NCBI GenBank assembly: GCA_007692665.1
Contig: REBP01000127.1
Coordinates: 1 to 36,343 of the forward strand
Reading direction: 5' to 3'
From: Gemmatimonadales bacterium
Lineage (GTDB): Bacteria > Gemmatimonadota > Gemmatimonadetes > Longimicrobiales > Gaopeijiaceae
Length of the DNA stretch: 36,343 bases
Part shown: positions 6,776 to 22,007 of the stretch, one piece after another
How positions within the stretch are numbered: the stretch's first letter is position 1
Layout: every line of letters starts with the position of its first letter
Position numbers and translations under genes: made by a program
Notes under the pieces: model-generated
What the model was told of the DNA's origin: nothing
What the model saw: only the letters and a program-made list of their open reading frames with translations
Database searches by the model: none

Positions 6776-8013
6776 TCCGGTTGCCAGTTGATGCTGTAGC
6801 GATAGGTGACGAATCCGTCCACCGTGGCGAAGAGGGTCACGAAAAGATAGGGGACCGACCCATCGCTCGAGGGGAGCTGCGCCCGTGCGCGCTGGAGCCA
6901 GGGGCCGTCGTCCTCCCGCTCGGCGTCCCAGGTGTCGAGCAGGCGCCACTCCGTTCCGGTGCGCGAGATCCACACCTCGGTGGTGGGCTCCGGGTTCTCC
7001 GCAAGCGCATACACGCTGAGAGGCTCGTGGGTCGTGCTCACTGCAGCCGTGCCATCCGCGAGGATGGTCGCATGATACGAGGGTTTCCCGATCTCCTGGC
7101 GGTGGGAGAGCGTCTGCGTGACCCTGTCGTACCGCATGATGGCGGAGGCGAAGTAGTCGTTGTCCGTTCCCCAGACGATGGCATCGGGAAGGAAGATCGG
7201 GGTGACGGACCGCCAGTCCTGCGATCCCCCGCCGAGGGCCTCGACCCCCCCGCACTCCGGGTCGAGTCGGAAGAGCCAGGACTCCTCGTCGTGGTCTCCG
7301 GTGGACACCAGGACCTGGTCCTCCACCGGGTCGTAGGACAAGCCGTGGATGTGGAAGACCTGCCCCATGTCGAAGGTATGGCAGAGTTCCCACTCCGTTC
7401 CGTCGCGGGTGCCCCGGAAGATCCTGATCGCGTGAGGCCGTGGGTCGCTCCGGTAGTCCCCGTAGAAGACCCGGTCCCGGGCATCCGCGGTCACGCCGTG
7501 TTCGAAGGGTGCGTAGAAGTCGTCCGCCGGTCGCGCCAGCGCCTCGAAGGTCCAGCCCCCGTCTTCGGAACGGTAGATCCGGTCGTAGAACATGAGGATC
7601 GTCCCGCTCGCCAGCACGACGACATCGCCGGGCCCCCGGACCTGGCGAATCCTCCGCGCGAGGGGGTGGCGCGCCACCGCGTTCTTCAGGTTGTCCGTGA
7701 AGGTGGGCTCCCACTTGGGAATCGCCCCCCTGCGCTCGAAGGTCTCGCCCATGTCCTCGCTGACGTAGAGGAAGTGGTCCTCCACGGCGTAGATCCGGCC
7801 GTCGCGAATGCGCCGTACCGAGAGCCGGTCGATCTGCCGGTCCCGGCGGGCACTGAAGACCCCGGCTTCTGCGACCTCCACGTCGACGACCCGGGCGACC
7901 CGGTCATGCCCACCCGGGACCCACCAGAAGGGGACCACCAGCACGGCGAGAAGGAGGAGCATGATGCCGGCCAGGATGAGGCCCGCGGTCTGGGGGTACC
8001 GCCCTCTGCGCAA
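6772..8013 (-). CDS. Membrane-anchored BNR/sialidase-fold beta-propeller protein
   Basis: About 413 residues from the chosen TTG. A basic start is followed by one membrane helix (about residues 10-29, LILAGIMLLLLAVLVVPFWW), then a soluble beta-propeller-like domain. BNR/Asp-box repeats are visible as YVSEDMGETFERRG and YRSEDGGWTFEA, plus a degenerate IWGTD-type strand. The family includes sialidases and non-enzymatic propellers; I see no complete sialidase active site, so activity is open. TTG 8013 was chosen because GGAG lies five bases upstream and it leaves room for the divergent glycosyltransferase promoter. GTG 8109 and ATG 8142 are alternatives, but the latter overlaps the divergent gene. 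It heads the minus-strand block and probably acts on the periplasmic face, perhaps binding or trimming the polymer. Confidence 0.75.
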   Translation of the reverse strand: MRRGRYPQTAGLILAGIMLLLLAVLVVPFWWVPGGHDRVARVVDVEVAEAGVFSARRDRQIDRLSVRRIRDGRIYAVEDHFLYVSEDMGETFERRGAIPKWEPTFTDNLKNAVARHPLARRIRQVRGPGDVVVLASGTILMFYDRIYRSEDGGWTFEALARPADDFYAPFEHGVTADARDRVFYGDYRSDPRPHAIRIFRGTRDGTEWELCHTFDMGQVFHIHGLSYDPVEDQVLVSTGDHDEESWLFRLDPECGGVEALGGGSQDWRSVTPIFLPDAIVWGTDNDYFASAIMRYDRVTQTLSHRQEIGKPSYHATILADGTAAVSTTHEPLSVYALAENPEPTTEVWISRTGTEWRLLDTWDAEREDDGPWLQRARAQLPSSDGSVPYLFVTLFATVDGFVTYRYSINWQPE

Positions 8014-8064
8014 GAAAACTCCGGGGGTCTGGGGGGGGGCCGCTTCGGTGATCGGCCCCGTGAC

Positions 8065-8080
8065 TGGCCCGATCGAAGCC
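8065..8080 (+). promoter_or_regulatory. Weak sigma-54-like site before the divergent GT4 gene
   Basis: TGGCCCGATCGAAGCC keeps GG and GC at -24/-12 spacing but loses the TT of the -12 box. It lies about 48 bases before GTG 8128. Weaker than the other sites. Confidence 0.25.
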
Positions 8081-8127
8081 CGGATTGTAGTCTTCGCTTC
8101 TCCAGTCACACAACCCACGGGGTGCGC

Positions 8128-9249
8128 GTGAAGGTACTTCATGTCATGGCCCCGTCCCCCATGGGCGGAGCAGAGCAGGTCGTTCTCGACCTCACGCGGG
8201 CGCAGGCGGCGGCGGGGGCGGAGGTGCACCTGGTCGCGATCCTGGGCGAGGGAGAGGAGGACCACGCGTTCCTCGCCGGCGTCGGCCCCGGGGTGGGGGT
8301 GCACCCCGTCCACGTGCCGCACCGCGCCTACCTGGCGGAGCGCCGCGCCATCCGCGAGCGGATCCGGGCGCTCGGGGCGTCGGTGGTCCACACCCACGGC
8401 TACCGGGCCGACGTCCTGGGCGGCAGCGCGGCCCGGTCCGAGGGGGTGCCCCTCGTCGGCACGGTCCACGGCTTCACCGGCGGCGACGCCCGGAACCGGT
8501 TCTACGAGTGGCTCCAGCGCCGCGCCTACCGGAAGTTCGACCGGGTCGTGGCAGTCTCCGAGGTCCTTGCGTCGGAGCTGGGCGCGGGCGCCCTGGACCG
8601 GTCCCGCATCGTCACCATCGGGAACGCCCGGAGCCGCCCCGCCGACCTGGCCGACCCCGCGGCTGCGCGCCACACGCTCGGCGCTCCGGCCGATGCCTTC
8701 CACGTCGGGTGGATCGGGCGCATGAGCCACGAGAAGGCGCCGGACCTGATGCTCGAGGCCCTCCGCATCCTCTCCGAAGGCGGGCGCGTCCCCACGCTCC
8801 ACGCCACGATGATCGGCGACGGTCGCGAACGGGCGGCGCTCCAGGCCCGGACCGGCGAACTCGGCCTCGGCGACCGGATCCGCTGGCCCGGCGGCATTGC
8901 GGGGGCTGCCTCCCTCCTCCGGGGCTTCGACGTGGTGGCCATGAGCTCCCGCACCGAGGGGACCCCCATCGTGGCCCTCGAGGCCATGATCACCGGGGTT
9001 CCCCTGGTCGCCACCCGGGTCGGCGGAATTCCCGCCCTGGCCGGAGAGGAGGCCGCCCTCCTGGTGCCGCCGGAGGATCCCGAGGCGCTCGCCGCGGCCA
9101 TCGAGTCGGTGCACGCGGGTCCCGCTGCCGCCGGGGAGCGCGCCGACCTCGCGCGACGCCGCATGGACGAGATCGCCGCCCCGGCGCGCTGGGCCGAGCA
9201 GTACCTTGACCTTTACCGCGGCATCCCCGGACTCGAAGGAGGAGGCTGA
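8128..9249 (+). CDS. GT4 glycosyltransferase
   Basis: A 373-residue GT-B enzyme. The N-terminal domain opens with KVLHVMAPSPMGGAEQVVLDL, where the GGAE turn is typical of GT4, and has VVHTHGYRADVLG at about residues 90-102. The C-terminal nucleotide-binding domain starts at HVGWIGRMSHEKAPDLMLEAL and contains the EX7E motif SSRTEGTPIVALEAM (about 272-286). It should transfer a sugar from an NDP-sugar to a growing lipid-linked glycan in the cytoplasm. GTG 8128 is used; GTG 8122, two codons earlier, is equally possible. The ribosome-binding site is weak. It is the first gene of the plus-strand block, divergent from the BNR-like gene; the lipoprotein gene follows after three bases. Sugar specificity is unknown. 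Confidence 0.9.
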   Translation: MKVLHVMAPSPMGGAEQVVLDLTRAQAAAGAEVHLVAILGEGEEDHAFLAGVGPGVGVHPVHVPHRAYLAERRAIRERIRALGASVVHTHGYRADVLGGSAARSEGVPLVGTVHGFTGGDARNRFYEWLQRRAYRKFDRVVAVSEVLASELGAGALDRSRIVTIGNARSRPADLADPAAARHTLGAPADAFHVGWIGRMSHEKAPDLMLEALRILSEGGRVPTLHATMIGDGRERAALQARTGELGLGDRIRWPGGIAGAASLLRGFDVVAMSSRTEGTPIVALEAMITGVPLVATRVGGIPALAGEEAALLVPPEDPEALAAAIESVHAGPAAAGERADLARRRMDEIAAPARWAEQYLDLYRGIPGLEGGG

Positions 9250-9252
9250 CCC

Positions 9253-10284
9253 ATGATCCCGGTTCCCACGTTCCTTCGGACCCTGACGTCCGGTCTCGTG
9301 CTGGCGTGCGCCCTCGCCGCGTGCTCCGAGGCCGGATCCATGACCCTGGACACCCCCGACCCGCCGGGCCCCGAACTCCCCCCGGACCCGCCCCGGGACT
9401 CCACGGAAATCTGCGGAATCGCCGCGTCCTTTCCCGGCGACCAGGGGATCGCGGCCCACCCCTCCGTCCTCTTCCACGAGGACTTCGAGCACGGCTCCAT
9501 GGGACGGCTCGCCGAGCGGTTCTCCTCGATCCGGAACCCCGGGCGGCTGGACTTCGTGGACAGTGTGTCGGCGGAGAGCTCCGGCGAACGCGCCCTCCGC
9601 ATGACGGCCGTCGGAGGCGCGGGCACCGGCGCCCACCTCTTCCGATCGTTCGACGGCGGCCACAACCTGCTTCACCTGCGCTACTACATCAGGTACGACA
9701 CGAGCCACGTGTACCATCACACCGGGGGGACGCTGGGAGGCTACAACCCGCCCACCCCGTGGCCCCAGGGCGGCGCCGGCAGTCGGCCAGGCGGTGCGGA
9801 CAAGATCTCCATCCGGTTCGAGCCCATGTCCCGGGGCAGGGGCCTGGACTTCTACACCTACTGGATGGAGATGCGCGGGAACCCCGGGGACTCGAGCTTC
9901 TGGGGGAACACCTTCCTCGGGGGCGCGCGCCCGCCCGTGCCGCACCGGGAGTGGGTCGCCGTGGAGTTCATGGTGCGCCTGAACGACCCTGCCGACGCCA
10001 CGAACGGGGAACTCGCGCTCTGGCTCGACGGCGAGCCGGTCCTGCACCTGCGTCCCGGGGACCCCCGGGGCAGGTGGGTCTGGGACACCTTCCATCCGGA
10101 TCCGCAGGGGGAGCCGTTTCCCGGGTTCCAGTGGAGGAATGCCGACAACCTCGGCCTCAACTGGCTCTGGTTCTCCCACTATGTCACGGGTCAGCCCGAG
10201 GGCGAGGTGAGCGAGGTCTGGTGGGACGACATCGTGCTGGCCACGGAGTACATCGGGCCCATCGGCGGGAGCCCCTGCCCCTGA
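9253..10284 (+). CDS. Lipoprotein, possible polysaccharide-lyase / concanavalin-like domain
   Basis: A 343-residue protein with a lipobox: the signal peptide ends LAAC with Cys24, so a lipid anchor is expected. A Pro/Asp-rich linker follows (about residues 34-48), then a soluble domain. Strand-rich blocks such as HLRYYIRYDTSHVYHHTGG, KISIRFEPMS, EWVAVEFMVRLNDP, GELALWLDGEPVLH and VWWDDIVLATEYIG resemble the beta-jelly-roll of polysaccharide lyases and concanavalin-like binding proteins. I cannot name a lyase family or active site, so binding without cleavage is possible. An excellent ribosome-binding site (GGAGGAGG) lies just before ATG 9253, inside the end of the preceding gene. Probably periplasmic or outer-membrane, trimming or binding the polymer made by this locus. 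Confidence 0.8.
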   Translation: MIPVPTFLRTLTSGLVLACALAACSEAGSMTLDTPDPPGPELPPDPPRDSTEICGIAASFPGDQGIAAHPSVLFHEDFEHGSMGRLAERFSSIRNPGRLDFVDSVSAESSGERALRMTAVGGAGTGAHLFRSFDGGHNLLHLRYYIRYDTSHVYHHTGGTLGGYNPPTPWPQGGAGSRPGGADKISIRFEPMSRGRGLDFYTYWMEMRGNPGDSSFWGNTFLGGARPPVPHREWVAVEFMVRLNDPADATNGELALWLDGEPVLHLRPGDPRGRWVWDTFHPDPQGEPFPGFQWRNADNLGLNWLWFSHYVTGQPEGEVSEVWWDDIVLATEYIGPIGGSPCP

Positions 10285-10295
10285 CGCCCGCCAGG

Positions 10296-10311
10296 TGGCC
10301 CTGAACTTGCT
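10296..10311 (+). promoter_or_regulatory. Candidate sigma-54 promoter before the flippase-like gene
   Basis: TGGCCCTGAACTTGCT has a complete -12 box (TTGCT) and TGGC at -24, with two mismatches to TGGCACR-N4-TTGCW. It sits in the 73-base gap after the lipoprotein gene. The start site would be near 10322, 36 bases before ATG 10358. Confidence 0.55.
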
Positions 10312-10357
10312 CGGGAAGGCCCCGCGACGCATGGCCGCTTGACCCTCGGGAGTCCGG

Positions 10358-11422
10358 ATGACAGCAACAGGAAGCGAAAAGCGAAACGACAGGAAGGGAC
10401 TGTGGCTCGGGGTCCGCATCGCGGTTGCGGCGGCTCTCCTGGGGGGGATGGTGTGGGCCGCGGACTTCTCGAGGGCCACCATCGTCCTCGACGGGGCCAC
10501 CCTCCTGGGGGTCCTCGTGGCCTGCGTCCTCCTCGTCATCACGCTGCACCTGAGCGCCATCCGGTGGCACGTGGTGCTGGGAAGCGCCGAGCCCGGGGTC
10601 ATGGCCCTCTCCAGGCTCTACTTCATCGGGTGGTTCTTCAGCCAGTTCCTTCCGTCGTCGGTGGGGGGAGATGCCGCGCGGCTCATCGGGCTCCGCCAGT
10701 CCGGCACGACGCTGGGCCGGGCGGGGTCGAGCATCGTGCTGGAACGCCTGCTGGGGCTTGCCGCCCTGGTCGTGTTCCTCGGGGCCGGCGTCGTGGTGTT
10801 TCCCGGGCTGGCGCGCCTCACCGCCGAGGGTTCGTCGCTGGGCCTTCCGACCTCGTGGCTCGTGGCGGGGGCCGGCGTGGGGGCCCTCGGGACGCTGGTC
10901 GGATCCGTCCTGCTGGTGCGGAACGAGCGGTTCCGGAGCCTCATGCGGAACACCTTCTCGCTCTGGCAGAGCTTCCTGGGCTCGCGGGAGCGGGTCGTCT
11001 CGGCGGTCATCCTCTCCTTCCTGGTGCAGGCGGGCTACATACTGGTGTGGGTGGCCATCGCTCTCGGCCTCCGGCTGGATGTTCCCCTGGCGGTCCATCT
11101 CTTCTTCGTGCCGGCGGTGAGCCTCGCCGCGCTCCTCCCCGTCACCGTCTCGGGGCTCGGGGTGCGCGAGGGATTCACCGTCCTCATCCTGGCGCCCTTC
11201 GGGGTGGCCGTCGCCGATGCAGTGGCCTACGGGCTGATCTTCTATGGCTGCAGCGTCCTCGTGGGCGGAATCGGCGGGCTCGTCTTCCTCCGGTCGGGGC
11301 TCGACGTCCGGGAGCTGACGGAGGCCGCCGAGGGGGCCGCACCGGCCGGGGCGGCCCGGAGCCCGGAGAGCGACCCGGGGGAGGCGAAATCCGGTGGCCG
11401 GGCCAGGGCCGGGGTTCGCTGA
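10358..11422 (+). CDS. Flippase-like integral membrane protein (LPG synthase TM / UPF0104 type)
   Basis: A 354-residue protein with about eight membrane segments. Family blocks include WFFSQFLPSSVGGDAARL (residues about 88-105), SSIVLERLLGL and LLPVTVSGLGVREG, the conserved core of the lysylphosphatidylglycerol synthase membrane domain family (also called UPF0104 or YbhN-like). Stand-alone members are common in glycan loci and are suspected to flip or handle lipid-linked intermediates, but this is not proven. The C-terminal 35 residues are low-complexity Ala/Glu/Gly. ATG 10358 is preceded by a strong sigma-54 match at 10296-10311, so the gene probably has its own promoter although it lies only 73 bases after the lipoprotein gene. 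No Wzx-type flippase was seen in the window, so this protein or the ABC exporter may fill that role. Confidence 0.85.
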   Translation: MTATGSEKRNDRKGLWLGVRIAVAAALLGGMVWAADFSRATIVLDGATLLGVLVACVLLVITLHLSAIRWHVVLGSAEPGVMALSRLYFIGWFFSQFLPSSVGGDAARLIGLRQSGTTLGRAGSSIVLERLLGLAALVVFLGAGVVVFPGLARLTAEGSSLGLPTSWLVAGAGVGALGTLVGSVLLVRNERFRSLMRNTFSLWQSFLGSRERVVSAVILSFLVQAGYILVWVAIALGLRLDVPLAVHLFFVPAVSLAALLPVTVSGLGVREGFTVLILAPFGVAVADAVAYGLIFYGCSVLVGGIGGLVFLRSGLDVRELTEAAEGAAPAGAARSPESDPGEAKSGGRARAGVR

Positions 11423-11784
11423 GCCCGGGCGCCCGGGGGGGCTGAGGCACCGACGCATTGCGCGGCAGTTCGTGACATCTGACGGACCTGCGGCAGGGTG
11501 CGGGAGGGGATGCGATTCGCTCCCCCGTGCGAGGAGGGGAACCCCGGACCGGCGCGGGTCGAACCCGAAGGGGGGGCGAGGTGTACAGACCGCTTGGCCC
11601 CGGAAGGATCGACTTTCCGGCCCCCGTTCCGGCTCCCTTGCTGCCCCGACCGCGGCACTGGACTTGCTGTACAGGGTGCTGCAAACGGAGATTCCCGGAC
11701 GCGGCGACGCACGCCGCCGCCGGGCACACAACGACGGATTTTCTTTCGTGATCTGGTTCTTTCGCCCTGTTCAAGGCTTCCTTC
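11423..11784. other. Intergenic region upstream of the Wzc-like gene
   Basis: This is the only gap over 300 bases in the window. I see no convincing gene here. It holds two TGTACAG copies (11582-11588 and 11668-11674), an inverted repeat CCGGAA/TTCCGG (11600-11605 and 11615-11620, 9-base loop), and the sigma-54-like site at 11653-11668. The last 60 bases are relatively A/T-rich before the ATG. The inverted repeat lies about 60-80 bases before the predicted start site, where sigma-54 activators often bind. Confidence 0.5.
11653..11668 (+). promoter_or_regulatory. Candidate sigma-54 promoter before the wzc-like operon
   Basis: CGGCACTGGACTTGCT carries GGCAC at -24 and a full TTGCT at -12 with correct spacing; mismatches are the first base and the purine after GGCAC. 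The start site would be near 11679, giving a leader of about 105 bases. It shares CTGRACTTGCT with the site at 10296-10311. Confidence 0.55.
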
Positions 11785-14217
11785 ATGTCTGATCGCTCGC
11801 TCCCCTCGGGGGACCCCAACGGCTCGCAGCGGGACCTGCCGGCAGAGTATTACCCGGCCCCCGCCCCTGCCCCGGCTCCCGCAGGATGGGGAGGGGACGA
11901 GGAGGAGCAGGGCCTGGACTGGCGTCGCTACGTCGCCGCCATCGTCCGGAACAAGTGGCTCGTGCTGGCCGGACTCGTGGTGGGCCTGGGCGCAGGCTTC
12001 CTGGTCCGCCAGGTGACCAGCCCCGTCTACAGCGTATCCTCCACGGTCCTGCTCGAGTCCACCGACCGCGGGACCGCCGGCGACGCGGCTCCCATCCGTC
12101 CGAGCCAGCTCCTGACGAACACGGGGTGGATGGACCTCCTCCGCTCCTACATCGTGCTCGACCCGGTCGTCGACAACCTGCGGCTGTACGTCACCCCCGC
12201 AGACCCCGCGCACGCCCCTCTCTTCGAGGACTTCTCGGTGGGGAACGAGGTGTTCTCGGCCAGCTACGAGATCGGCCGCGACGCTTCCGGCGGTGACCTG
12301 CTTCTCTTCGATTCGGACGGCAACGTTCTCGAGCGCGCCGCGCCGGGCCAGCCCATCGGCGCCGAACGGGGCATCGAGTGGACCCCCCCTGCCGGCGCCA
12401 TCGAGGCGGGCCAGCGCATCGCCTTCCGGGTGACCCGCCCCCGCGAAGTGGCGCGAGGCCTTCTGGCAGACCTGGACGTTCGGATCCAGGGCACGTTCAT
12501 GACGGTGGGGATGTCCGGAACCGATCCGGTTCGCACCACGCGCGTCCTGAACGGCATCCTGGACCGGTTCGCCATCGTGGCGGAGGACCTGAAGCGCGCC
12601 AAGTTCGAGGAACTGCAGGCCATTCTCGAGGAACAGCTGGACTATGCCGCCCAGAACCTCCAGCAGGCCGAGTACGCCCTCGAGGGGTTCAAGGTTCGAA
12701 CCATCAGCCTCCCCTCGGAGCAGGGAATGCCGGTCGCAGGGGGCACCCAGCAGACCACCAACCCCGTGTTCCAGAACTTCTTCAACCTGAGGGTGGAGCA
12801 GGACGAGGCGCGCCGGGACCAGAGCGCGCTGAACCGCGCCATGGCGCGGTCGCAGCAGGAGGGGCGCCTGGCCACCGAGGCCCTGGAGGTGATCCCGAGT
12901 GTCAGGGAGTCCACGGACCTCGTGAGGGCGCTGTCGCTGGCGAGCGAGAAGCGGGCCGAAGTCCGCGCCCTGTCCCTCCGGTACCACGAGGACTGGCCCG
13001 AGGTGCAGGCCCTCCGCCGGGACATCGTCGAGCTCGAGCAGCAGACGATCCCCGCGCTCGTGGGGACGCTCCAGAGCGAGATGCAGGCGCGCGAGTCCGA
13101 GATCGAGCGGTTCGTGGGTCGGGCCTCCTCCGAACTCCAGCAGATTCCCCCCCGCGTCGTCGAGGAGGCCCGCCTCACGCGTGAGTACCAGAGCGCGGAG
13201 AACCTCTTCCGTGACCTCCAGGGTCGTTTCGAGAACGCGAGGCTCGGTGCCGTGAGCACGGTGCCCGACGTCCGCATCCTCGTCCGTGCACAGGTCCCCG
13301 AGTTCCCCAGCTCGGATCCGCGGAACCAGTTCGGGCTCATGGCGATTCTCGCCGGGCTCGCCCTCGGACTCGTCGGAGCGATCGTCCGTGACCGGATGGA
13401 CCCGGTGCTGCGCCGCCCCGACCAGGTGAGTGGCGACCTGGGTCTCCCCATCCTCGCGACGATCCCCCACGTCCGCAGCCGGAACGGCAGGCTCCGTCCC
13501 GAGGACCACGAGCAGGTCGTCGAAGCCTTCCGGAGTCTCCGCCTCGCCCTCGCCTACGGGCGACGCGGTGCGGGACCCCTTGTCCTGACGATCTCGAGCC
13601 CGGGTGTGGGCGACGGCAAGTCCTTCACGACCAGCAACCTGGCCCTGGCCTGCGCCGAGCTGGGACATCGCACGCTGGTCATCGACGGTGACGTCCGGCG
13701 GGGCACGCTGCATACGCTCTTCAACCTGTCGCGCCGGCCCGGGCTCACCGACTTCCTCGCCGGCGAAGCCGAGCTCGAGGCGGTGGTCCAGTCCACGGAA
13801 CACGACACCATGTGGGTGATCCCGAGCGGATCCCGGCTCCGGGACGGCCCGGAGCTCCTGGGTACCGACAGGATGATCGAGCTGCTCGACGACGTGCGCG
13901 GTCGCTTCGACGTGATCCTCATCGACAGCCCGCCCCTGGGCGCCGCCGTGGATCCGTACCTGCTGGGTACGCTGTCGGGCTCCATCATGCTGGTCTTCCG
14001 AAACGGGACCACCAACCAGGACGTGGCCGTGTCCCGCATCGAGGAACTCAAGCGTCTGCCGGTCCAGATCGTCGGAGCGGTGCTGAACGACGTGCCCGCC
14101 GGCTCGGCAGCCTACAAGTCCTACGCCTACCTTCCCGGGTACGGTGTCGCCGACGAGGAGCCGGAGACGCGCGAGGCCCCCGAGGGCCGGCGCCTGGTTG
14201 CGAGGGCGGAAGCATGA
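11785..14217 (+). CDS. Wzc-like polysaccharide co-polymerase with BY-kinase domain
   Basis: An 810-residue protein joining a Wzz-type chain-length domain to a bacterial tyrosine-kinase domain. A Pro/Ala-rich start is followed by TM1 (about residues 57-75), a long periplasmic part with coiled-coil content, TM2 (about 512-532), and the cytoplasmic ATPase. Walker A is SPGVGDGKS (near 606-613), Walker A' is LVIDGDVRRG (near 632), Walker B is VILIDSPP (near 711). The C-terminal tail has four tyrosines (SAAYKSYAYLPGYG), fewer than the cluster in E. coli Wzc. It should control polymer length and export with the Wza-like protein encoded next (ATGA overlap). Phosphorylation would be reversed by the phosphatase at 6161-6775. 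The start ATG has only AAGG as ribosome site. A sigma-54 match lies at 11653-11668. Confidence 0.92.
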   Translation: MSDRSLPSGDPNGSQRDLPAEYYPAPAPAPAPAGWGGDEEEQGLDWRRYVAAIVRNKWLVLAGLVVGLGAGFLVRQVTSPVYSVSSTVLLESTDRGTAGDAAPIRPSQLLTNTGWMDLLRSYIVLDPVVDNLRLYVTPADPAHAPLFEDFSVGNEVFSASYEIGRDASGGDLLLFDSDGNVLERAAPGQPIGAERGIEWTPPAGAIEAGQRIAFRVTRPREVARGLLADLDVRIQGTFMTVGMSGTDPVRTTRVLNGILDRFAIVAEDLKRAKFEELQAILEEQLDYAAQNLQQAEYALEGFKVRTISLPSEQGMPVAGGTQQTTNPVFQNFFNLRVEQDEARRDQSALNRAMARSQQEGRLATEALEVIPSVRESTDLVRALSLASEKRAEVRALSLRYHEDWPEVQALRRDIVELEQQTIPALVGTLQSEMQARESEIERFVGRASSELQQIPPRVVEEARLTREYQSAENLFRDLQGRFENARLGAVSTVPDVRILVRAQVPEFPSSDPRNQFGLMAILAGLALGLVGAIVRDRMDPVLRRPDQVSGDLGLPILATIPHVRSRNGRLRPEDHEQVVEAFRSLRLALAYGRRGAGPLVLTISSPGVGDGKSFTTSNLALACAELGHRTLVIDGDVRRGTLHTLFNLSRRPGLTDFLAGEAELEAVVQSTEHDTMWVIPSGSRLRDGPELLGTDRMIELLDDVRGRFDVILIDSPPLGAAVDPYLLGTLSGSIMLVFRNGTTNQDVAVSRIEELKRLPVQIVGAVLNDVPAGSAAYKSYAYLPGYGVADEEPETREAPEGRRLVARAEA

Positions 14218-15053
14218 GGCTCCGGCGGCAGTCGGCCGGCAGGGCCGCAACGCTGGCTACCTTCATGGCCATCCTCCTGGTGGGTTTCGCCCTTCCCCCC
14301 GAGGCCCAGGCCCAGACCCGCACCCAGGCGCAGACGCCGACGGAGTGGGACGCAGCCCGCGAGGAAATGAGCCGGGCGGAACTCGAGGCCCTCCTGGCGA
14401 GGCTCGAGACCGAGGCCCAGTCCACCGCCTACAGCCAGCGCCTCCGGGAGCAGGCCAGCCGGAGTGCAGACCTGGTTCGCGCCCGGCTGACCGACGGGGA
14501 CTTCCAGGTCGGCGACCGCATCGTCCTCATGGTGCAGCAGCAGCCGGAAATCTCCGACACGCTCACCGTGCGGGCGGGGCGCGTCGTCTCGATCCCCGTG
14601 GTCGGAGATCTCTCGCTGGCCGGCGTTCTCCGGGCGGAGCTGAACGACTACATGCAGCAGCACGTGTCCCGGTACGTCCGTGATCCCGTGGTTCGCACCG
14701 AGACCCTCATCCGGGTCCTGGTGCAGGGTGCCGTGGGGAGGCCCGGGTTCTACCTGGTTCCCGCGGACCGCCTCATGACCGATGTGCTGACGATCGCGGG
14801 CGGGCCGGGAGGAAACGCCGACCTGTCCGACGTACGGGTCGAACGGGGCGATCAACGGATATGGGAAGGGGAGGCCCTCCGGACAGCCATCATCCAGGGG
14901 CGCACCCTTGACCACCTGAACATCCAGGCAGGGGACCGGATCTTCGTGCCCACGTCCATCGAACGATCCACGTGGGAGATCGTCCGGAACGTGACCGGGG
15001 TGGTGGGCACACTGGCGACCCTGACCTATGCGCTCACACGCATCTTCAACTGA
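14214..15053 (+). CDS. Polysaccharide export protein with Poly_export and SLBB domains (Wza-like)
   Basis: A 279-residue secreted protein. A signal peptide (about residues 1-34, ending EAQAQ) has no lipobox cysteine, unlike lipoprotein Wza. A charged helical segment (about 45-85) precedes the export domain, starting FQVGDRIVLMVQQQPEISDTL and VVSIPVVGDLSLAGV. An SLBB segment begins near VLVQGAVGRPGFYLVPADRLMTDVLTIAGG. The last 20 residues form a hydrophobic helix (VVGTLATLTYALTRIF) that could insert in the outer membrane as Wza's C-terminal helix does. It would form or gate the outer-membrane exit channel. ATG 14214 overlaps the Wzc-like stop (ATGA); the ABC exporter gene begins three bases after its stop, so these three genes are one unit. 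The overlap-defined start gives a clean signal peptide. Confidence 0.9.
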   Translation: MRLRRQSAGRAATLATFMAILLVGFALPPEAQAQTRTQAQTPTEWDAAREEMSRAELEALLARLETEAQSTAYSQRLREQASRSADLVRARLTDGDFQVGDRIVLMVQQQPEISDTLTVRAGRVVSIPVVGDLSLAGVLRAELNDYMQQHVSRYVRDPVVRTETLIRVLVQGAVGRPGFYLVPADRLMTDVLTIAGGPGGNADLSDVRVERGDQRIWEGEALRTAIIQGRTLDHLNIQAGDRIFVPTSIERSTWEIVRNVTGVVGTLATLTYALTRIFN

Positions 15054-15056
15054 TTC

Positions 15057-16823
15057 ATGGCCCTCTTCAACATCCAGACCGGCAGTTTCTTTCGGCACTT
15101 CATGAAGGCCTACCCGGGACGCAGCGTCCTCATGGTGGTCCTGCTCGCCTCGGCGGGCATCGTGGAAGGTGTCGGTGTGGTGACGATGCTCCCCCTCCTG
15201 GAGCTCGTGACCGGCGACCCCGGAGGGGCGGAATCGGGGATCACGGCGGCGATCACGCGTGCCCTTGCCCTGGTGGGACTCACGCCGACCCTCGGCGTCC
15301 TCCTCGGGATGATCGTCCTGGCCATGTCCGGGAAGGCGCTCTTCCTCTGGCTCGCCATGCGGCAGGTGGGCTTCACCGTGGCCCAGGTCACCACCGACCT
15401 CCGCATGAGCCTGCTCCGGGCGCTCCTGAATGCGCGCTGGAGCTACTACGCGTCCCAGTCCACGGGCCGGTTCGCGAACGCCATCAGCAGCGAGGCGCAC
15501 CGCGCCGCCGCCGCCTACCGCGAGGGCTGCGTGCTGGTGGCGGGGATCCTCCAGGTCCTCGCCTACCTGACCATCGCCTTCCTGATTTCCTGGCAGATGG
15601 CCGTGGCGGCCATTCTCTTCGGCGCCGCCTTCCTCTTCCTGCTCCGGGGATTCGTGCGGATCTCGCGGGAGGCGGGAGCGGAACAGACGGAGCTCATGCG
15701 GTCCCTGATCACGCGGCTCACCGATGCGCTGCGCGGGATCAAGCCCATCCGGGCCATGGGCCGCGAGAACCACCTGCAGCCCCTTCTCGAGCAGGAGACG
15801 GAGGGCCTGAACCAGGCGCTCCGGCGCCAGGTCGGCGCCGCCGAGACGCTCCGGCTCTTCCAGGAGCCCATGGTCGCCCTGATCCTGGGGCTCGGGCTCT
15901 TCATCGCCCTGGGCGTGGGTGAGCAGCCCTTCGCGTCGGTCATGATCATGGCCTTCGTCTTCTACCGCCTGATGAGCCACAGCAACACGCTCCAGACCCG
16001 CTACCAGACGCTGGCCCTCGGAGAGAGTGCGTTCTGGTCGCTGATGGAACAGGTCGAGCGCGCCGAAAGCCAGGCCGAGAACTCGACGGGGACCCGGAAG
16101 CCGACCGTGCTCCGCGACGGCGTACGGCTCACCGATGTCCACTTCGCCTACGACGAGACCCCGGTTCTCTCCGGGGTGACGCTCGACATTCCCGCCGGGT
16201 CGTTCGTCGCGCTCTACGGACCGTCCGGGGCCGGAAAGACGACGATCGCCGACCTCGTCATCGGTCTCCACACGCCGAATTCCGGACGCGTCGAGGTCGA
16301 CGGGGTGGACCTGATGGACTTCGACCTGGTGGCCTGGCGCCGCGGCATCGGCTACGTCCCCCAGGAACTCTTCCTCTTCCACGACACGATCTTCCGGAAC
16401 GTGAACCTGGGCGACCCCTCGCTCACCCGCGAGGACGTCGAGGCGGCGCTGAGGGCAGCCGATGCGTGGGACTTCGTCAGCAGTCGCCCGGAAGGGCTGG
16501 ACCACGTCATCGGCGAAGCCGGCTCCATGCTCTCCGGAGGCCAGCGCCAGCGCATCTCCATCGCGCGTGCCCTGGTCCACCGCCCGCACCTGATGATCCT
16601 GGACGAGGCCACCGCATCGCTGGACCCCGAGACCGAAGCCGGGATCCTCGACACGCTTCAGCGACTCAGCCGGCAGGTCACGATCCTCGCCATCTCGCAT
16701 CAGCCGGCGCTCCGCGATGCCGCCGACATGGTGTATTACCTGGAGCAGGGCGCCGTGGCCGAGACCCGGGGCGTCGCCTCCGACTCCCCGGCCCACCGGG
16801 GCGAAGAGGTGGTCTCGATCTGA
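15057..16823 (+). CDS. ABC transporter, fused permease-ATPase (MsbA-type exporter)
   Basis: A 588-residue half-transporter. Six membrane helices occupy about residues 20-310. The ATPase domain has GPSGAGKTT (Walker A, about 389-397), the Q-loop in GYVPQELFLF, the signature LSGGQRQR (about 491-498), LMILDEA (Walker B, about 511-517) and a switch histidine in ISHQP. Such homodimeric exporters flip lipid-linked saccharides or export lipids and peptides. Its position three bases after the Wza-like gene argues for moving a glycolipid intermediate of this pathway. No ribosome site is obvious at ATG 15057, so translation is probably coupled to the preceding gene. It ends the plus-strand block, converging on a glycosyltransferase gene 13 bases away. 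Confidence 0.92.
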   Translation: MALFNIQTGSFFRHFMKAYPGRSVLMVVLLASAGIVEGVGVVTMLPLLELVTGDPGGAESGITAAITRALALVGLTPTLGVLLGMIVLAMSGKALFLWLAMRQVGFTVAQVTTDLRMSLLRALLNARWSYYASQSTGRFANAISSEAHRAAAAYREGCVLVAGILQVLAYLTIAFLISWQMAVAAILFGAAFLFLLRGFVRISREAGAEQTELMRSLITRLTDALRGIKPIRAMGRENHLQPLLEQETEGLNQALRRQVGAAETLRLFQEPMVALILGLGLFIALGVGEQPFASVMIMAFVFYRLMSHSNTLQTRYQTLALGESAFWSLMEQVERAESQAENSTGTRKPTVLRDGVRLTDVHFAYDETPVLSGVTLDIPAGSFVALYGPSGAGKTTIADLVIGLHTPNSGRVEVDGVDLMDFDLVAWRRGIGYVPQELFLFHDTIFRNVNLGDPSLTREDVEAALRAADAWDFVSSRPEGLDHVIGEAGSMLSGGQRQRISIARALVHRPHLMILDEATASLDPETEAGILDTLQRLSRQVTILAISHQPALRDAADMVYYLEQGAVAETRGVASDSPAHRGEEVVSI

Positions 16824-19497: not shown

Positions 19498-20949
19498 TCA
19501 GCGCCGGGGATCGGGATCGGGACCGGGATCGGGACCGGGGGAGACGGGGGCCGGCACGAAAGCTACAAGACCGGACCGGCCCCACCACCCCAGCAGGACT
19601 CCCGCAAGGAGGGCGAGCCCCTGGCCCACCGGAAGGATCGCCGCCGATCCCAGGAGCCAGGGTGCCGAGCCTCCCACCACGACCAGTCCCAGCCCGGCCA
19701 GCCCGGCGGCCCTCCGGGAACGGGCGACGAGCCCCGGCACGAATCCGAGTCCGAGGAGCCACCCCCACGCGATCGCGCTCCGAAGCCAGGGCGGAAAACG
19801 CGTGGGGTAGAGGAGGAGGGTCCACCCCTGGCCCAGGGTCGGTCGGAGCCCGCAGCGCTCGGCTTCCACCCCGTCCCTCCCCTCGGCCCCCCGTGCCAGG
19901 CGCAGGCACGCGCTCCCGTCGCCCGGGCCGTCGGTTCCCTCCGTGCTCAGCCAGAAGGACAGTTCCCCGGGGTCCCCGGTCTCCATCCCCCCGAACGCTC
20001 CCCGGATTCTCGTGTCCGGCCGGTCCAGGCGGAGGGTGGTTGCCAGGTACGGGAGGCGGAGCACGGCGTCCTCCCCCGCGACGCCGAGGACGATGACCTC
20101 GCGCTGGGCCCCCGTGAAGACGCTGAAGAGGGGCGCGGTCCTGGCCGGCGGCGGACCCGTCTCGAACGCCACGACGACCCGGGACCCGCCGAAGATGCGG
20201 TCCACGAGGGCCACCGGATCCGGGTGACGCCCGGTCTCCAGGCGTTCCCGGCTGCCCCCGGCCGCCCCCCCGGAGAGCCAGACCTCGTGTACGGTGCCCG
20301 TGTACCGCTCGTACTGGGCGAGGTCGGCCTGGATCTGGACGAACTGGGGCGGGGGAGGGGGCGCCAGCCGAAAGGCCAGCGCGGTCCCGGCGAGGACGGT
20401 GGCGGAGAGTCCCCACCACCCGAGGGCCTGCACGACGCCCCGGGGCGAGGGGCCGGCGGCCGTGCCGGCACGCCCCCTGGCGCCCCTCACGAACGACCCC
20501 ACCAGCACGATTCCCAGCGCCGCCCCGGCGGCGTTGGCGACGAAGTCCGCCAGCAGCGAGTTCCGCCCGGCGATGAAGATCTGCGCCAGTTCGACCCCCG
20601 CCGTGAGGGCCACCGCCGGGAGCCAGGCCCGCAGAAACCGCCGCGTGGCTGTTGGGTGGGCCGGGTCGCCTTCCGCGGCCCGCGCCCCGGACCCGGACCC
20701 GGACCCGGTTCCCAGCCCCATCCCCACCACCATCCCCGCCCCGATGCCGAGGGGGACGAAGAGGATCACGTTCCGGATCAGGTTGGCGGTGCCGAAGGAC
20801 CCGCACAGGATGCAGAAGCTCCACGAGAGGGTCCGCGCCCCCGGGTGCGGGGTCAGGGTCAGCACGAGGATCACCATGGCCGAAAGGCCCACGATCCACC
20901 ACCCGACCCCGGTCCAGAGTCGCCGCCCCCTCAGTCCCGCCCGGTTCAG
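19498..20949 (-). CDS. VanZ-like membrane protein with a large extracytoplasmic insert
   Basis: The VanZ core is clear: FCILCGSFGTANLIRNVILFVPLG, and after it AGVELAQIFIAGRNSLLADFVANAAGAALG, the family pattern of Glu-Gln followed by R.s..D..aN..G. After a further helix, about 190 residues rich in beta-strand patterns (FVQIQADLAQYER to TLGQGWTLLLYP) form what looks like a lectin/LamG-like domain, then three to four C-terminal helices. VanZ proteins are common in exopolysaccharide loci; their function there is unknown. An ordinary GTG at 20892 would remove most of the first helix. A CTG at 20949 overlaps the FemAB stop (CTGA), is in frame, and gives a basic start (MNRAGLRGRRLW) plus a full helix, so I prefer it (483 residues). 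GSGSGS and GPDPGPDP stretches come from hexanucleotide repeats. Confidence 0.8.
   Translation of the reverse strand: MNRAGLRGRRLWTGVGWWIVGLSAMVILVLTLTPHPGARTLSWSFCILCGSFGTANLIRNVILFVPLGIGAGMVVGMGLGTGSGSGSGARAAEGDPAHPTATRRFLRAWLPAVALTAGVELAQIFIAGRNSLLADFVANAAGAALGIVLVGSFVRGARGRAGTAAGPSPRGVVQALGWWGLSATVLAGTALAFRLAPPPPPQFVQIQADLAQYERYTGTVHEVWLSGGAAGGSRERLETGRHPDPVALVDRIFGGSRVVVAFETGPPPARTAPLFSVFTGAQREVIVLGVAGEDAVLRLPYLATTLRLDRPDTRIRGAFGGMETGDPGELSFWLSTEGTDGPGDGSACLRLARGAEGRDGVEAERCGLRPTLGQGWTLLLYPTRFPPWLRSAIAWGWLLGLGFVPGLVARSRRAAGLAGLGLVVVGGSAPWLLGSAAILPVGQGLALLAGVLLGWWGRSGLVAFVPAPVSPGPDPGPDPDPRR
19507..19536. repeat. Hexanucleotide repeat at the 3' end of the VanZ-like gene
   Basis: Five units of GGGATC or GGGACC encode the GPDPGPDPDP tail of the VanZ-like protein on the minus strand. 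It ends seven bases from the stop. Confidence 0.8.
20689..20706. repeat. Hexanucleotide repeat in the VanZ-like gene
   Basis: Three GGACCC units encode GSGSGS on the minus strand, in the loop between the first two VanZ helical segments. Confidence 0.7.
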
Positions 20950-22007
20950 GGGATCCGCCGTGCCAGCCAGGGTCCGATGACCCGTGTTGCGCCCACCGGC
21001 AGCCGCGACCAGACCCGGATCGCCAGCGCGTAGCGGCCCTCGTCAGGGTTCGGGGTCGCCGCCCGTTCACCGCCCGGGGCGACCTGGATCCACGGAAGGG
21101 GATGGTCCTCGCCGCCCCACTGGGACTTGAAGCGGTGCGTCCCCCCGCCCGGCGTGCAGCGCCCGAAGTTGAACACCTTGAGCCCTTCCTGGATGGCCCG
21201 CTCCATCAGGCTCCAGTAGAGGAGCATGTTCGGAGCCTCCCGGCTGAAGGCCCGGAGCGAGGAGGCCCAGGTGAGCTCGAACTCGTCCCGGAACCGGAAC
21301 CCGCACCCGCCCGCCACCGGCGTGTCTCCCGAGTAGACCACGGCGAACCAGACCGTGTCGCCGAAGACCTCGGCGAGGCGGTGGAAGAGCGACCGGGGGA
21401 GCACCGGCGTGCCCAGGTCGCGCATGTGCGTGGAGAAGACCTCGTAGAAGGCGTCCACCTGGTCGTGCCCGAAGCGGGTCTCCATGCCGGCCTTCATGGG
21501 GCGCCTGACCTGGCTCCGCACCTTGGCCTTCAGCCCGTCCTTCCAGAGGACCTCCGGGTCGTCCGGAAGGTCCAGCAGCACCGTCACCTTGCGCGCGTTC
21601 ACGGGATGCGGCTGTTCGATCTCCTCCCGCATCCGGAGTTCCAGGAGGTCCACCCCGAGCTCTCCCGCCAGCGCCGCCGCCGCGTCCACCAGCCGGCGGC
21701 ATCCCTCCGCCCCGCCAATGGGCCCGCCGTAGTTCAGGAAGGGCATGGAAACGAGGTAGTTTCCGAAGAGCCGGCTCCTGACGTGGACCAGGGGCAGCCC
21801 GGCCTCGAGAACCCCGTCGGGACGCCGGGCGCAGAGGGTCATGAACCCATGACCGAACTCCGCCTCCATGATGCGCTGCCACCCGTCGAGGTGGCAGAAC
21901 GTGGCCTCCGGGCTGCGCTCCACGAGCTCCGACCAGTCCGGGGGGAGTGCATCCACCCGCATCACCTCCAGCATTTCCTGCGCCTTCGTGCCGTCGCCTG
22001 CCTCCAC
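20946..22007 (-). CDS. FemAB-family acyltransferase of the XrtA/PEP-CTERM-associated type
   Basis: About 353 residues with a GNAT-like double fold. PEATFCHLDGWQRIMEAEFGH near the N terminus and FNFGRCTPGGGTHRFKSQWG near the C terminus match, from memory, the FemAB proteins that accompany exosortase A (XrtA/PEP-CTERM) exopolysaccharide loci (TIGR03019). FemAB enzymes add amino acids to peptidoglycan from aminoacyl-tRNA; the acceptor in exosortase loci is not established. No membrane helix is visible, so cytoplasmic. Start is uncertain: GTG 22007 has AGGAGG four bases upstream and is used; TTG 22031 and ATG 21974 or 21962 are alternatives, the last matching the usual family start. First gene of block C; its stop overlaps the VanZ-like gene. 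No exosortase gene is in the window. Confidence 0.87.
   Translation of the reverse strand: MEAGDGTKAQEMLEVMRVDALPPDWSELVERSPEATFCHLDGWQRIMEAEFGHGFMTLCARRPDGVLEAGLPLVHVRSRLFGNYLVSMPFLNYGGPIGGAEGCRRLVDAAAALAGELGVDLLELRMREEIEQPHPVNARKVTVLLDLPDDPEVLWKDGLKAKVRSQVRRPMKAGMETRFGHDQVDAFYEVFSTHMRDLGTPVLPRSLFHRLAEVFGDTVWFAVVYSGDTPVAGGCGFRFRDEFELTWASSLRAFSREAPNMLLYWSLMERAIQEGLKVFNFGRCTPGGGTHRFKSQWGGEDHPLPWIQVAPGGERAATPNPDEGRYALAIRVWSRLPVGATRVIGPWLARRIP

Follow-up and report, generated by a model that had tools for sequence, protein, structure and literature searches.

Envelope polysaccharides are already known to come under sigma-54 control (PMC3162934, PMC9850573). In the PrsK/PrsR PEP-CTERM cis-regulatory pair, an NtrC-family activator is associated with an upstream activator motif and a sigma-54 motif, both located in a long intergenic gap at exopolysaccharide genes, and among PEP-CTERM species this pair of motifs is confined to Proteobacteria (Haft et al. 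2006, PMC1569441). The arrangement analysed here, in a stretch of 36,343 nucleotides (the window) from a Gemmatimonadales bacterium, is alike in these respects, but its target is the wzc export genes, its activator falls below the PrsR cut-off, its palindrome is TGTTGC-N6-GCAACA, PrsK over cut-off is missing, and exosortase is missing in most genomes. The RpoN-dependent PEP-CTERM gene pepA of Aquincola also has a -24/-12 promoter in a polysaccharide/floc context; unlike the present one, it has been mapped by experiment, and its host is a proteobacterium that has PrsK-PrsR (PMC9850573). More generally, Francke et al. (2011, PMC3162934) tie sigma-54 activators and promoters to polysaccharide and envelope genes across phyla, and the portion of this general survey considered here does not describe an activator-palindrome-wzc divergon. 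Two-component activators of the NtrC type share with the present system the order REC-AAA+(GAFTGA)-Fis HTH and a palindromic site that precedes the -24 box by roughly 100 nt, although the activator of the window organism, L016, reaches no NCBIfam equivalog cut-off.

The original prediction placed the locus under PrsR-type activators of PEP-CTERM/exosortase loci, citing a FemAB protein of that type. This FemAB-family XrtA/PEP-CTERM-associated protein is indeed encoded in the window (20946–22007, minus strand; TIGR03019 308.9 bits against a cut-off of 260.35), and an XrtA-type deacetylase (TIGR03006) lies behind another -24/-12 site of the same genome. Control by PrsK/PrsR is nevertheless very improbable. 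Exosortase (PF09721) has no match in the organism's own genome, which is 95% complete, and exceeds its cut-off in 7 of 59 genomes; PrsK (TIGR02916) is over cut-off in none of the 59, and none of the organism's own activators reaches the PrsR (TIGR02915) cut-off, the best scoring 395 against 502.6. With the exosortase, PrsK and PrsR profile searches all below cut-off or without a match, membership in a PrsR/exosortase system was rejected. The palindrome of the linked activator also lacks the TTTACA core of the proteobacterial motif (PMC1569441). The likeness to PrsR control is one of logic, not of membership.

The export operon and the element upstream of wzc

Gene calls were made by a simple codon-usage method. 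Downstream of the gap at 11423–11784, three genes follow one another on the plus strand: a Wzc-like chain-length determinant/tyrosine autokinase (BY-kinase; 11785–14217; TIGR01007 127.4 bits, cut-off 108.05, with Wzz, GNVR and AAA_31 matches), a Wza-like polysaccharide export protein (Poly_export and SLBB; 14265–15053, with a possible start as early as 13812; PF02563 and PF10531 over cut-off, TIGR03027 weak) and an exporter-type ABC transporter with membrane and ATPase domains (15057–16823; PF00664, PF00005). Upstream of this gap, on the same strand, lie a GT4 glycosyltransferase (6781–9249; PF13692, PF13439), a polysaccharide-lyase-14-like protein (9253–10284; PF21294 below cut-off) and a flippase-like membrane protein (LPG_synthase_TM; 10358–11422; PF03706 123 bits, TIGR00374 over cut-off). 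The N-terminal ~450 amino acids of the GT4 glycosyltransferase match no known family.

Two 16-mers in this region had been put forward as sigma-54 promoters, and their place, strand and sequence features were all confirmed. Site 1 (10296–10311, plus strand) reads TGGCCCTGAACTTGCT and lies in the 73-nt gap 10285–10357, whereas site 2 (11653–11668, plus strand) reads CGGCACTGGACTTGCT and lies in the 362-nt gap preceding wzc; both are thus intergenic and on the coding strand. Each has the GG-N10-GC spacing, a TTGCT -12 box and a -24 box that differs from TGGCAC at one position. CTGRACTTGCT is common to both, and 13 of the 16 bases are the same, spacer bases included. The sequence YGGCMCTGRACTTGCT occurs in the 4.23-Mb assembly at these two sites only. 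The predicted +1 lies near 11679 for site 2 and near 10322 for site 1, the latter 36 nt before the flippase-like gene.

Site 2 is conserved upstream of wzc. The nearest relative found, a Gemmatimonadetes genome bin (L143, SKKH01000214.1; Wzc identity 62%), carries CGGCACTGGACTTGCA 110 nt before the ATG, with 15 of 16 bases as in site 2, in a gap that has otherwise diverged and is poorly alignable. A scan of named genomes added only this wzc locus, and the assignment of the relatives to Gemmatimonadota rests on it. Each of 18 further orthologues (38–47% identity), from relatives within the same taxonomic order, has a similar site 43–151 nt before the start; in a few loci (L038–L041) the site was assigned by eye and differs from the top-ranked match of the strict pattern. 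A -24/-12 site is thus present in 20/20 wzc upstream regions with GG and GC invariant throughout, and the mismatches summed over these loci are 16, as against 59.5 in shuffled sequence (shuffle minimum 48). The -24 box favours CGG over TGG in 17 of the 20, unlike the usual TGGCAC consensus. Judged by this footprint, site 2 is a real -24/-12 element, retained across an order of relatives.

The activator, its palindrome and their separation from wzc

The machinery for reading such an element appears to be encoded in the genome. A search for rpoN, which the original prediction had called for, gave one gene (PF04552 213 bits), and rpoN is found in 58 of the 59 genomes searched. Strong matches to PF00158 mark 16 activators in the organism, and a GAFTGA-type loop is present in nearly every one of them. 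Among the orthologue loci whose upstream side is readable, 15 of 17 have a divergent NtrC-family sigma-54 activator gene within about 2 kb of wzc. All of these linked activators find their best match among the 16 in L016 (53–63% identity; next best about 35–45%), and the recognition helix AGVDRTTLYRLM is near-identical between them and L016, where readable. Many of the activator-wzc gaps contain the palindrome TGTTGC-N6-GCAACA, usually 80–180 nt upstream of the -24 box. Its summed mismatches are 35 compared with 80.6 in shuffles (minimum 73), and spacers of 5, 7 or 8 in place of 6 give no signal in the relatives' gaps. Bacterial enhancers are usually laid out in this way. The ancestral arrangement in the order, as reconstructed from these loci, is a divergon in which the palindrome for the activator and the -24/-12 element lie between the activator gene and wzc.

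The earlier proposal of sigma-54 control for the export operon at site 2 is supported by the footprint, by the activator gene next to wzc in relatives, by the palindrome in their gaps and by the enrichment across the genome (below). Together these elements appear to make up a Gemmatimonadota regulatory module that is of a known type but has so far gone undescribed; no description of it was found in the literature searched, which included few subscription papers, so that this absence is weak evidence. It is likely that an order-wide Gemmatimonadota sigma-54 export module exists, in which a REC-AAA+-Fis activator, TGTTGC-N6-GCAACA, the -24/-12 element and wzc form a divergon distinct from PrsKR and split in the window lineage.

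In the window organism the elements are parted. The one clear activator orthologue, L016, is located at C145:85127–86632, on another contig than wzc; it encodes a response regulator-AAA+-Fis HTH protein, and a histidine kinase gene lies just downstream. A copy of the palindrome with one mismatch is present about 150 nt before L016 (C145:86776–86793), one of only four such in the genome. Between this palindrome and the start of L016, the ~13-nt unit TGATTGTCTCCCG also occurs at least three times in head-to-tail succession (C145:86700–86780, L136). Within 450 nt of the window's wzc, TGTTGC-N6-GCAACA is absent, the best candidate in the 362-nt gap having 5/12 mismatches, and the relatives' palindrome is likewise absent at site 1. 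From these positions we infer that the ancestral divergon was split in the window lineage, the palindrome having been kept beside L016 and the promoter with wzc. An alternative reading of the palindrome beside L016 is autoregulation of L016.

The separation also allows for site 2 being real while L016, once the genes had parted, was replaced there by one of the other activators in the genome that binds a different site. The absence of the palindrome near wzc is in keeping with such a takeover, as is its persistence beside L016; the relative L037, in which activator and wzc are also unlinked, has no palindrome either, and that of L143 is poor (3 mismatches). However, the recognition helix of L016 is nearly unchanged, and weak or distant sites can suffice for activators. 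The scan at wzc covered the L016-type palindrome alone, in a genome with 15 further activators. We give this takeover somewhat less than an even chance. Under either activator we regard it as very likely that the wzc-wza-ABC export operon has its sigma-54 core promoter at site 2, that the ancestral activator divergon is split here as its parts are now placed, and that site 1 is probably a second promoter.

The mechanism would then be as follows. RNA polymerase carrying sigma-54 (RpoN) would read site 2 as the core promoter of wzc-wza-ABC, and, like other sigma-54 promoters, site 2 would stay closed until an ATP-hydrolysing NtrC-family activator remodelled it. L016, or another of the 16 activators, may switch on polysaccharide export upon stimulation of its kinase. 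What began as a guess about two sites has become a testable circuit with a named promoter, an activator orthologue and a candidate binding site. The split arrangement further poses the question of how a sigma-54 promoter functions once parted from its ancestral activator site and, if true, makes the window lineage a natural case of promoter-enhancer separation.

Matches across the genome and the standing of site 1

The pattern YGGYMY-N4-YTTGCW, which was composed with the orthologue sites already in view, has 23 matches genome-wide; 15 of these are noncoding and no more than 300 nt from the start of a gene on their own strand. As a control, the same two words were placed at 30 wrong spacings; the resulting densities, taken from a 1.17-Mb sample biased to contigs with matches and scaled to the whole genome, were set against the genome-wide observed counts and predict 7.1 matches, 1.6 of them in promoter position. 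The promoter-position excess is 15 versus 1.6 (Poisson p about 1e-10, or 1e-8 without the two window sites), and a looser pattern gives 17 observed versus 2.2 expected. A random 254-kb subsample taken alone shows no excess and is too small to decide. Raw totals also show no excess over a reversed pattern (23 versus 62) or a column-shuffled one, for which 29 matches are predicted; the spacing control was preferred because both of these alter word composition. The excess over wrong spacings implies that roughly 10% of the promoter-position matches are false positives.

These counts bear on site 1. Its pattern, strand and position, taken with the genome-wide statistics, leave the proposed sigma-54 promoter plausible, but conservation adds no support: flippase relatives at 29–43% identity (G042, G046) have no equivalent site upstream. 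Since the gap is only 73 nt long and lies between same-strand genes, site 1 might be a chance match, with read-through from the preceding genes at 6781–10284 accounting for transcription of the flippase-like gene. We think this unlikely, given that about 90% of the promoter-position matches exceed chance, that 13 of the 16 bases, spacer bases included, are held in common with site 2, and that the relatives compared are just 29–43% identical and of no demonstrated common neighbourhood. By the genome-wide false-positive rate, which gives it a chance of about 90% of being real, site 1 is probably a second sigma-54 promoter, serving the flippase-like gene.

The idea of an RpoN regulon in a little-described lineage is supported. 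Literature searches gave almost no description of such control here, and sigma-54 control of polysaccharide export, mainly known from Proteobacteria, would thereby be extended to it. Of the other sites in the genome, one is followed by a second locus for polysaccharide export; also found 3' of such sites are two family-2 glycosyltransferase (GT2) genes, genes for an XrtA-type deacetylase and a GGDEF protein, and others. At the second export locus, of the order wza-wzc-capD, the -24/-12-like site CGGTCTGCATCTTGCA lies 5' of an export gene (C24:25668–25683; L137 10669, minus strand). The site at C243:4839–4854 (L138) precedes the XrtA-type polysaccharide deacetylase (TIGR03006 over cut-off), with a polyketide-synthase-like gene nearby downstream, in this genome without an exosortase match. 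Within coding sequence, an identical CGGTCCCGAACTTGCT occurs on two contigs, at C35:5816 and C119:2725 (L084, L088), and these copies probably reflect chance plus gene duplication.
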